From: Patescibacteria group bacterium
GTDB lineage: Bacteria; Patescibacteriota; Patescibacteriia; Buchananbacterales; SURF-54
Direction of reading: 5' to 3'
DNA: 49,219 nt
Assembly: GCA_018818885.1 (NCBI GenBank)
Contig: JAHIRB010000021.1
Location: 76,461 to 125,679 of the forward strand
In this document: in pieces, positions 1,898 to 6,199 of the stretch
How positions within the stretch are numbered: the first letter of the stretch is position 1
Layout of the letters: each line of letters begins with the position of its first letter
Notes under the pieces: model-generated
The model's database searches: none
Told to the model about the DNA's origin: nothing
Seen by the model: only the letters and a program-made list of their open reading frames with translations
Made by a program: the position numbers and the translations under genes

Positions 1898-2038
1898 ATG
1901 GGTGATCCTTGCAAAAAAATAAAGGATGACGAATCAGGGCTCACGTGCTCGAAATGCGGGCAAGAAGTTGATAGTAAAACTGTTCCTTGCCCAAATTGTA
2001 ATCACGATCACTTCAAACACCCAAGGTTTGAGGAATAA
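1898..2038 (+). CDS. 46-residue zinc-ribbon protein
   Basis: ATG at 1898 lies 5-8 nt after a near-perfect ribosome site (GGAAAGGAGGTGA) and the frame runs to TAA at 2036-2038. The peptide has two Cys pairs, CSKCG (17-21) and CPNC (31-34), followed by HDHFKH, so it should bind one zinc ion as a rubredoxin/ribbon knuckle. It has its own promoter upstream and a strong terminator at 2101-2141, so it is a stand-alone, probably well expressed, small protein. Function unknown; a nucleic-acid or ribosome-associated role is only a guess. Confidence 0.75.
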   Translation: MGDPCKKIKDDESGLTCSKCGQEVDSKTVPCPNCNHDHFKHPRFEE

Positions 2039-2144: not shown

Positions 2145-2166
2145 TAAAAAACCGCTTCAATAGCGG
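2145..2166 (-). terminator. Intrinsic terminator of the structured ncRNA
   Basis: On the minus strand CCGCT, a 5-nt loop and AGCGG (2152-2166) are followed by six U (2151 down to 2146). It closes the RNA whose promoter lies at 2418-2445. Confidence 0.65.
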
Positions 2167-2411
2167 CATTATATTTTTTAGACAAAAGAAAGAAGACTAA
2201 GTGCTTCTATCATGAAAATTCATCATTTGATGAATGGGGGGGAGAAGGTTAAGATTGAGAGTTTATTATAATTTATTATAATTGCAGTAATAACTGCGTA
2301 AAAGAGAAGAGGTGTAAGGAAGGAAATTCTATCTCCTGCTTGCGCAAGAAACAGAATTTCCTCCCCAAAACTTCATATCTCTTTTAAAACTTCAATCTAC
2401 ACTTAGTCTTC
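2146..2411 (-). ncRNA. Structured non-coding RNA, 6S-like rod architecture
   Basis: A minus-strand RNA starting near 2411 behind a very good promoter. Nested pairings in order from outside in: 2400-2411 with 2192-2203 (12 bp, perfect), 2392-2398 with 2252-2258 (7 bp), 2378-2385 with 2300-2307 (8 bp), 2353-2361 with 2322-2330 (9 bp) closing a loop of about 22 nt. Two side hairpins occur in the 3' half: GCAGT/ACTGC around 2284-2297 and TTCATCA/TGATGAA around 2218-2234. No open frame of note covers it. A closing stem, large internal bubble and apical stem over about 220 nt resemble 6S RNA, the regulator that occupies RNA polymerase; identity as 6S is an inference from shape, not sequence. Confidence 0.6.
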
Positions 2412-2417
2412 GCCTTT

Positions 2418-2445
2418 ATTCTACCATGCTTATATACTGCGTCAA
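2418..2445 (-). promoter_or_regulatory. Promoter of the structured ncRNA
   Basis: On the minus strand TTGACG (2445-2440), a 16-nt spacer and TAGAAT (2423-2418). The predicted start near 2411 falls exactly at the base of the outermost RNA stem. Confidence 0.75.
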
Positions 2446-2603: not shown

Positions 2604-3383
2604 TTACCACTTATTTATAATCTTAAGCAACTGTTTATGAATAGTAGTATTACTGCTGGCTAAAAATTTGCTGTTCTTGTCTGATTTTTCTTGGTTGCCA
2701 TTGAAATCAGTAATCACTGCTCCTGCCTCGCGTGCAATTAACTTACCAGCTAAAAAATCGTAGATTTCATTATCATTATTAACTATGGCTTCCAGTTTGC
2801 CTAAAGCTAAAAGGCAAAAATCATACGCTGGTGCCCAGTTGGATAAGACTCTTTTAAGATTAGCTCTAGTTAAGCTTCCCATTTGAGCAGCCACTATATT
2901 TTTAGGATCATTGTAAGCACATGAATAACAGACCGTAGCTTGAGACAAATGTCGCGTGTTATTAGTCTTTAGCCTAACACCGTCCAGATATGCTCCCTTA
3001 CCCTTTTGTGCATAATAGGTTTTATCTAATATTGGATGATGTATAACCGAAGCTATAATCTGATCCTTTTGTAACAAAGCAATGTTAATAGCAAAATTGG
3101 GAATGTTTAGTGCAAAATTGTTTGTGCCATCCAAAGGATCAATTATAAAAATATAATCTGATTTTTTATCAATTAAACCACACTCTTCAGAAAAAATATT
3201 ATAGTCAGGAAATTCTTTGATCAAAACTTTCAAAACAGCTTTTTCTGAATCAATATCGGCTTGAGTAAAAAAATTAGCGGCAGTGCCTTTATTTATCTGC
3301 TTAAGATTCTGGCCAAAATATTTTTTTAATACTCTACCGCCACTTTTTGCGGAGTTAATTATTTTTTGTATTTGCTGTGTCAT
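2604..3383 (-). CDS. Inositol monophosphatase family protein
   Basis: A 259-residue Mg2+/Li+-sensitive phosphatase-fold protein. The family signature DPLDGTNNF is at residues 82-90 with the metal ligands EE at 66-67 and D82/D85; a second signature lies near the C-terminus, where AYDFCLLALGK and LAGKLIAREAGA match the usual WD..A...AREAGG block with the Asp retained. Members hydrolyse myo-inositol-1-phosphate, fructose-1,6-bisphosphate, 3'-phosphoadenosine phosphates or histidinol phosphate; the substrate is not predictable here. Length is normal (about 260). It is on the same strand as the ncRNA but separated from it by about 190 bp and the ncRNA promoter. No Shine-Dalgarno site precedes the start. 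Confidence 0.88.
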   Translation of the reverse strand: MTQQIQKIINSAKSGGRVLKKYFGQNLKQINKGTAANFFTQADIDSEKAVLKVLIKEFPDYNIFSEECGLIDKKSDYIFIIDPLDGTNNFALNIPNFAINIALLQKDQIIASVIHHPILDKTYYAQKGKGAYLDGVRLKTNNTRHLSQATVCYSCAYNDPKNIVAAQMGSLTRANLKRVLSNWAPAYDFCLLALGKLEAIVNNDNEIYDFLAGKLIAREAGAVITDFNGNQEKSDKNSKFLASSNTTIHKQLLKIINKW

Positions 3384-5008: not shown

Positions 5009-5383
5009 TCATATTAATTTAATATTACCTTGTGAAATCTTTTCCATTTTCCTAATTAACCTTTTACTGCTAATCAATCTTAGCTGAGGCCAAATAATTG
5101 TATAGCTTTTGCCATTTTCTATAAATGTATAAAAAAATCTTCCTTCTTTCTTTTTCGTGGTTAACGGTATGGCCCAAAGCATATTCTTATTAAATTTTCT
5201 GAATATTAATACAGGCCTTTCGAATTTTTCATTTTTACCATCTTCTTCAAAACCAATATTACAACCCAAAGATGCCCACCAGATTTCCCTTTCATAAAAA
5301 TAAAAACTGATGTCTTTATTAATAATAATCCTAATCTTTAATCTTGTCCATTCAACAATCTTAGTTAATTTTTCTTCAATCAT
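5009..5383 (-). CDS. MazF/PemK-like toxin, copy 1
   Basis: A 124-residue MazF/PemK-fold protein. REIWWASLGCNIGFEEDGK (about 32-50) holds the IWW..LG.N.G strand and loop of this family, followed by RPVLIFRKFN and AIPLTTK, the conserved core strands, and WPQLRLISSKRL near the end. MazF/PemK toxins are sequence-specific endoribonucleases. No protein antitoxin gene adjoins it: the next gene upstream on this strand starts 250 bp away and the gap has no usable frame. It differs from copy 2 (10943-11341) mainly by scattered substitutions and by ending eight residues earlier. A convergent sRNA lies immediately 3'. Transcription probably starts at the 5438-5466 promoter and passes a terminator-like hairpin before the ATG. 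Confidence 0.8.
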   Translation of the reverse strand: MIEEKLTKIVEWTRLKIRIIINKDISFYFYEREIWWASLGCNIGFEEDGKNEKFERPVLIFRKFNKNMLWAIPLTTKKKEGRFFYTFIENGKSYTIIWPQLRLISSKRLIRKMEKISQGNIKLI

Positions 5384-5402
5384 AATTAAGTAATTAATAC
5401 AA

Positions 5403-5426
5403 AAAACGGCTCCAAAGCGCCGTTTT
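5403..5426 (-). promoter_or_regulatory. Terminator-like hairpin in the toxin 1 leader
   Basis: AAAACGGC / GCCGTTTT with a loop of 8 nt; on the minus strand the right arm runs into T-rich sequence just 20 nt before the toxin ATG. Near-identical elements precede toxin 2 (11361-11385) and, at greater distance, dinD (12401-12426). Because it lies between the promoter and the start codon it could act as an attenuator. Confidence 0.6.
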
Positions 5427-5437
5427 GTTATGTTGAA

Positions 5438-5466
5438 ATGTTACTTGATTGTATCTTAAATGTCAA
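5438..5466 (-). promoter_or_regulatory. Promoter of MazF-like toxin copy 1
   Basis: On the minus strand TTGACA (5466-5461), 17-nt spacer, TAACAT (5443-5438). The -35 box directly abuts a REP-like element at 5472-5503. Confidence 0.6.
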
Positions 5467-5471
5467 ATGGT

Positions 5472-5503
5472 CCGCCTCACCAAACTTCGCACAACACCGG
5501 CGG
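5472..5503. repeat. REP-like CCGCC...GGCGG element
   Basis: CCGCC and GGCGG arms enclose CTCACCAAACTTCGCACAA-type sequence. It belongs to the family with copies at 2558-2590, 4849-4876, 7927-7956, 13394-13425 and 14074-14105. Confidence 0.65.
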
Positions 5504-5559
5504 AAAGCACGCACAGCTTTCCACCTCTTTTCTTTTCCAAAATCAAAAAAACTCCCCCA

Positions 5560-5612
5560 ATCACTTGTCATTCCGGACTCCGATCCGGAATCTCCTACCT
5601 AAGGGGGAGTCT
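5560..5612. repeat. Hairpin repeat with ATTCCGGA...TCCGGAAT arms
   Basis: ATTCCGGACTCCGATCCGGAAT forms a near-perfect hairpin, and the flanking AACTCCCCC / GGGGGAGT words pair outside it. It lies downstream of the YgjP gene stop (5636) and may end that minus-strand transcript. Confidence 0.5.
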
Positions 5613-5635
5613 TATTTATATTGCTAAATAATTAT

Positions 5636-6199
5636 TTAAAAGTATAAACCTTTGTTTCTGATCTCTTTTCTTATTTCTTTATGATTGGGTACAAGCGTTG
5701 CCACTAAATTCCAAAACTTTGTTGAATGATTAAATTCTTTTAAATGGCAAAGCTCGTGAACAATAATATAATCTGCTGCATGCTTCGGCAAGAATAATAT
5801 TTTGTAATTAAAATTTAAATTTCGTTTCTTAGAACAACTCCCCCATCTGGTTTTTTGATTCTTTATGTTTATTTTGTTGTACTTAAATTGATAGGTAGAA
5901 TTGAAATGCTGTATGCGCTCTTGCACAAATTCTAAAGTTTTATTTTTGTATGTTAAATATTTTTGCTTGTCGTTTTTATTTATATCCACTCCAAACTTTT
6001 TAAAATGATCAATTTTAGCAAGCACCCAATTAGATTTTTCCATAATATATTTTTCTACTACCCTATCATTTAAACCCATTGGTTTAGTAACCACAAAACT
6101 GCCATCGCAATAAACAGCCAAACGCAACTTTTTAGCCTTCTTGCTGGTTTTTAATGTGTAGTTGATATCTCTACTATGTATTTTGATTTGTTTAGTCAT
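5636..6199 (-). CDS. YgjP-like zinc metallopeptidase
   Basis: A 187-residue protein of the YgjP/DUF45 (SprT-related M48-type) family. The zinc-binding motif HELCH is at residues 148-152 with a third ligand at H158 (EFNHS), and the family-specific RWGSCS lies at 118-123. Members are soluble metalloproteases of uncertain substrate, often encoded beside restriction or other defence genes. The ATG is 14 nt downstream of the stop of the Fic gene on the same strand, so the two are almost certainly cotranscribed from the promoter at 7129-7157. Length is slightly below the usual 220-240, missing part of the N-terminal beta region. Confidence 0.85.
   Translation of the reverse strand: MTKQIKIHSRDINYTLKTSKKAKKLRLAVYCDGSFVVTKPMGLNDRVVEKYIMEKSNWVLAKIDHFKKFGVDINKNDKQKYLTYKNKTLEFVQERIQHFNSTYQFKYNKINIKNQKTRWGSCSKKRNLNFNYKILFLPKHAADYIIVHELCHLKEFNHSTKFWNLVATLVPNHKEIRKEIRNKGLYF

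Follow-up and report, generated by a model that had tools for sequence, protein, structure and literature searches.

The minus strand of the 49,219-nt stretch of Patescibacteria DNA analyzed here (the window) carries, between 2445 and 2146, what is best explained from its sequence and its relatives as a gene for a standalone non-coding RNA (~220-266 nt) that acts in trans and is the first described example of a family known so far only from one class of Patescibacteria (GTDB class ABY1). We are almost certain that this is a real and new RNA family, and it counts as new because none of the 4227 Rfam models matches it. A literature search of incomplete coverage returned neither an RNA regulator described as specific to Patescibacteria nor such an RNA from these bacteria. 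The locus comprises the following features, in window coordinates:

2445 to 2418, minus strand: sigma-70 type promoter, TTGACG (2445-2440), 16 nt, TAGAAT (2423-2418)
2411 to 2146, minus strand: predicted transcript of ~266 nt, running from the presumed start through the terminator, based on the folding-energy z-score and on covariance-model homologues
2411-2192, minus strand: folded body, 220 nt
2411-2399/2204-2192, minus strand: closing stem P1, 13 pairs (12 perfect and one U.G), from the predicted fold and covariation
2398-2387/2264-2252, minus strand: P2, with one bulged base in its 3′ strand, from the predicted fold and covariation
2386-2378/2307-2299, minus strand: P3, from the predicted fold and covariation
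2377-2367, minus strand: 5′ side of an internal loop containing the weak P4, AUGARGUU-like in several copies
2374-2370/2313-2309, minus strand: weak P4
2366-2317, minus strand: terminal hairpin P5, 23 pairs (2366-2344/2339-2317), loop GCAA
2316-2308, minus strand: 3′ side of the internal loop, AACAC(U)-like in several copies
2298-2265, minus strand: arm 1, a one-sided insertion separating the 3′ strand of P3 from that of P2
2251-2205, minus strand: arm 2, a one-sided insertion separating the 3′ strand of P2 from that of P1
2191-2177, minus strand: tail UUUCUUUUGUCUAAA, directly after P1
2167-2146, minus strand: intrinsic terminator, hairpin GCCGCTATTGAAGCGGT-TTTTT with U run
1898-2038, plus strand: zinc-ribbon-like ORF of 46 aa, convergent with the RNA, with a strong AAGGAGGTG ribosome site

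The preliminary description of this region gave no strand; what it had claimed of the gene itself (the promoter, the intrinsic terminator, a perfect 12-bp closing stem, nested helices with two side hairpins over ~220 nt, and a lack of coding potential) is borne out on the minus strand, with a third side hairpin (2235-2218, in arm 2) to be added. The promoter has 10/12 matches to sigma-70 and an extended -10 (TGG), with TG before the -10, and 6 nt separate the end of the -10 at 2418 from the start of P1 at 2411. The sole open reading frame of at least 60 aa that touches the RNA gene is a 64-aa frame on the opposite strand, overlapping the promoter end. The gene is present in one copy in the window's genome; its upstream neighbor, on the same strand, is an inositol-monophosphatase-family gene (2604-3383), and all Pfam matches of the convergent 46-aa ORF fell below cut-off. 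A TTGAGA-N16-TATAAT sequence (11/12) inside the RNA gene but on the opposite strand (2255-2282, plus) is possibly a chance occurrence. Elsewhere in the window, a PemK/MazF-like toxin-family protein (Pfam PF02452) is encoded at 5009-5383 on the minus strand. ARAGORN found neither tmRNA nor tRNA in the window.

Positions 2412-2146 fold with a minimum free energy of -97.2 kcal/mol, whereas shuffled sequences averaged -48.3 (sd 4.5; z = -10.9) and none of 200 was as low; the plus strand folds more weakly (z = -7.35). The predicted structure is a rod in which the 5′ strand is nearly all paired and the unpaired stretches lie almost entirely on the 3′ strand. Arm 1 of this copy forms two small hairpins (2297-2284 and 2282-2265), and arm 2 holds a C7 run besides its single small hairpin.

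Plain DNA similarity, searched in 93 relatives, yielded only short matches at chance level. A covariance model built on the window sequence alone and run on 380 genomes of the class returned full-length matches in one genome of the same family (G001, E 4e-10) and one of the same order (G004, E 2e-11), with no match in other genomes at E <= 0.1 (E-values of all our covariance models are rough). The model from three hand-registered sequences added copies in G006, G010, G011, G039 and G301, and a scan of named genomes for a pattern, the recurring 5′ word AGATTGAGAGTAGAWAGRA, found copies in G006 (Parcubacteria bacterium GW2011_GWA2_38_13), in G301 (a Candidatus Komeilibacteria genome) and, as a new pair, in Candidatus Falkowbacteria S3_17; we take the Parcubacteria, Komeilibacteria and Falkowbacteria carriers to belong to GTDB class ABY1. 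Among ten pattern-scan loci in other phyla, five were chance matches without the fold. A model from nine sequences, also run on close relatives with laxer filters, matched 26/380 genomes of the class at E <= 0.1; in a 379-genome sample of the phylum, which held few known carriers, the window's genome was its sole match at E <= 0.01.

After inspection of the matches, the accepted family consists of 20 copies in 19 Patescibacteria genomes from at least nine families, the window's genome included (the others being G001, G004, G006, G009, G010, G011, G027, G039, G044, G098, G119, G133, G146, G182, G260, G301, G330 and Falkowbacteria S3_17, the last with two copies). Nine-sequence-model matches in G108 and G142 were inspected and rejected, a match in G007 (L069) is a repeated palindrome and hence no member, and weak nine-sequence-model matches in G017, G040, G219, G305, G358, G363 and G376 were left out of the counts. 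The true spread is under-counted, because weak members such as G027 score only E 0.04. In five of the 11 further genomes from the window's order no match was convincing, reflecting either absence or loss of the RNA or its divergence. The inositol monophosphatase family protein next to the gene had no relatives in the genome contigs searched, and no convincing RNA copy lay beside its relatives in whole genomes.

The compensatory changes in relatives by which the preliminary description proposed to judge the structure are present. In G001 and G004, the sequence of the closing stem is largely exchanged and its pairing kept. Among three sequences, 28/62 pairs changed on both sides, versus 2-4 when the pairing was slid, and among nine sequences 48/59 did, versus 12-16, with 88% of cells paired; these counts lean towards structure, because the rows of both alignments were registered by hand and padded with N, MAFFT having misaligned P2 and P5. 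By helix, the nine sequences show changes on both sides in 12/13 pairs of P1; all six modelled pairs of P3 covary, 20/23 pairs of P5 changed on both sides, the P2 core (GAAGUU/AACUUC) is conserved in relatives, and P4 is paired in just 71% in the nine-sequence check.

The promoter lay outside the covariance models and was scored within 5-10 nt of P1: at least 10/12 sigma-70 matches occur just upstream of 17/19 copies, versus 0.4% of random positions at the same loci (TTGACA-TATATT in G001 and TTGACA-TATAAT in G004, each just before the RNA). From 5′ to 3′, family members run through P1 (often AAGAUUGAGAGU), P2 (GAUAGAAGUUU), P3, a AUGAGGUU-like loop and P5 (~18-23 pairs), then through an AACAC-like loop, the 3′ strand of P3, arm 1, the 3′ strand of P2 (AACUUCUAUC), arm 2, the 3′ strand of P1 and a pyrimidine tail, often UUUCUUUUGYC. 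The arms of relatives measure 22-85 nt (arm 1) and 7-78 nt (arm 2), and arm 1 is in most of them largely unpaired A/C-rich RNA. Over 19 copies (1449 nt), the 3′ half contains 3.0% G, 42% A and 37.5% C, and 6% G in the window's own copy. Pyrimidines and then UUUUGYC, or a close variant, directly follow P1 in 8/19 copies. A UUUCUUUUGYCNAAA tail recurs between the closing stem and the terminator, at 2191-2177 in the window and in relatives. The proposed family is defined by what its members were found to have: a sigma-70 promoter 5-10 nt before P1, a rod made up of P1, P2, P3 and P5, and 3′ arms nearly free of G.

By analogy with known systems, the RNA is probably a trans-acting ligand of a protein. 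Transcribed from its own sigma-70 promoter, it would be made in quantity; the rod would protect it, and the arms, kept free of G, would stay single-stranded and thus open to protein binding. Our first choice of partner, and the likeliest single candidate, is RNA polymerase, a tentative assignment made because 6S is undetectable here and because Ms1, a rod-like RNA of different sequence, binds the sigma-free core of RNA polymerase in actinobacteria, in which, too, no 6S has been found (PMC9130861, PMC4191392). It is also quite possible, if short of probable, that this is a class-wide housekeeping RNA with a mechanism of its own, operating in genomes in which 6S, Hfq and Rho are undetectable, and that its rod presents the G-free single-stranded arms to a novel protein or to the ribosome.

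The main rival reading is that of a base-pairing regulator, modelled on the C-rich regions of Gram-positive sRNAs, whose G-free, C-containing arms would pair with purine-rich Shine-Dalgarno regions and block translation. We regard it as unlikely. Nearly every copy does have C-rich, mostly unpaired arms, the C7 run in the window's copy is matched by a C9 run in G011, and CTTCTCCCCC is common to two copies. However, the C runs are no longer than those of composition shuffles in 17/19 copies and supply no conserved seed, and CAACAAA-type words, which are typical of unstructured linkers, are only weakly enriched; conservation in the arms thus concerns their lack of G and their openness rather than a seed sequence. 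Nor was an Hfq domain found in 18 genomes, the window's among them, by which an Hfq-type sRNA is ruled out.

A true but highly diverged 6S homologue (RF00013), which would act as a template for pRNA, is improbable, although several features point its way: the length, rod shape, own promoter and single copy of the RNA, and, beneath the end hairpin, a small two-sided loop (~10 by 9 nt, around the weak P4) that lies ~35-56 nt in from the 5′ end. Moreover, 6S is otherwise undetected in the clade, with RF00013 matching 0/35 genomes of relatives and a control search finding 6S in known genomes. Against this stands the lack of any Rfam match, whether in the window at gathering threshold, at 1900-2700 for 6S at E 10, or at 16 homologous loci for 6S or any other family at E 1. 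The families that came nearest there (rseX, plastid psbA 3′UTR, miRNAs) scored far below gathering and were absent from the homologues. Searches for 6S, SRP RNA, tmRNA and RNase P RNA, proposed along with the original 6S suggestion, likewise gave no match at the locus (Rfam models, ARAGORN). That suggestion had been built on a rod-with-bubble form, of which the rod is present and the bubble, in 6S large, central and two-sided, is not: in the predicted structure, the longer unpaired segments bulge from the 3′ strand alone, and the only two-sided loop is the small one just described. Of the two identities offered at the time, a 6S homologue is not supported and a lineage-specific RNA is correct. 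The RNA may have a 6S-like function.

The surroundings of the gene bear on whether it acts in cis or in trans. In two pairs of related genomes a neighbor is kept: the RNA stands before a flippase-like gene in both G010 and G011, and after gyrB in both G146 and G182. The copy in G098 precedes a nusA-like gene, and that in G182 precedes secE-nusG-rplK-like genes (all of these genes were named by eye; loci L066, L067, L100, L101 and L103). Elsewhere the RNA has different neighbors in different families, so that no single gene accompanies it throughout, and this argues for a role in trans. G004, where a gene (methionine sulfoxide reductase by eye) begins ~25 nt downstream of the RNA, and an ATG in the internal loop of several copies might suggest that the RNA is a leader acting in cis or a short mRNA. 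However, the genes downstream vary between families, the ATG frames vary and are not conserved, and a terminator-like hairpin with U run is readable after the copies of many relatives, before the next gene; we consider this reading very improbable.

Duplications were seen at two loci. Falkowbacteria S3_17 (L087, minus strand) has two differing tandem copies, at about 5524-5766 and 5346-5505, the second with a perfect 14-bp closing stem and a weak promoter (8/12); the two may be transcribed together. In G133 (L111, minus strand), the end hairpin and A/C-rich arm are repeated just downstream with a near-identical hairpin, as a partial tandem duplication. Tandem or partly duplicated copies of this sort, together with the long nested inverted repeats, are what might be seen in a palindrome arisen by chance or in a small mobile element with inverted repeats, but the compensatory changes refute such an origin, and the single copy in the window's genome, the fixed place of the promoter in relatives and the same neighbor gene kept in two genome pairs leave it with scarcely any credibility. 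A decoy for the transcription terminator Rho, whose favored sites are C-rich and G-poor like the arms, has practically no chance, since the RNA-binding domain of Rho was undetected in the window's genome and in 17 relatives (in a search whose control was positive in 9/14 known genomes), which removes this reading as the lack of Hfq removes an Hfq-type sRNA.

The preferred reading, a trans-acting RNA that probably binds a protein, matters beyond this locus. Patescibacteria account for a very large share of bacterial diversity, and a standalone RNA with strong promoters is present here in numerous genera of a single class, within a clade without detectable 6S, Hfq or Rho. If it does bind RNA polymerase, it would join 6S and Ms1 as a third solution of independent shape; if it does not, it would point to a novel form of RNA-based control in minimal cells.

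Among known systems, 6S binds the holoenzyme of the housekeeping sigma factor and is the template for pRNA. Like 6S (RF00013), the RNA described here is ~200 nt long, standalone, single-copy and rod-shaped, with a closing stem at the 5′ end, a long end hairpin and a structure conserved more than its sequence; unlike 6S, it has no Rfam match and no large two-sided central bubble, and its unpaired regions are one-sided, A/C-rich and nearly without G. The C-rich-region sRNAs of Gram-positive bacteria, such as RsaE/RoxS, expose C-rich single strands and do not need Hfq, and in both respects the new RNA resembles them, but it has no conserved seed, and its arms are generally A/C-rich and are carried on a long rod rather than in small hairpin loops. 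Ms1 differs by its central bubble and by the extra hairpins that it carries at either end (PMC9130861), its relation having been compared through Rfam only; it is similar in being a longer, rod-like RNA from bacteria in which no 6S has been found (PMC9130861). The family itself is new, and its RNA is of a kind already known, to which 6S and Ms1 belong: standalone, rod-shaped bacterial RNAs of the abundant type.
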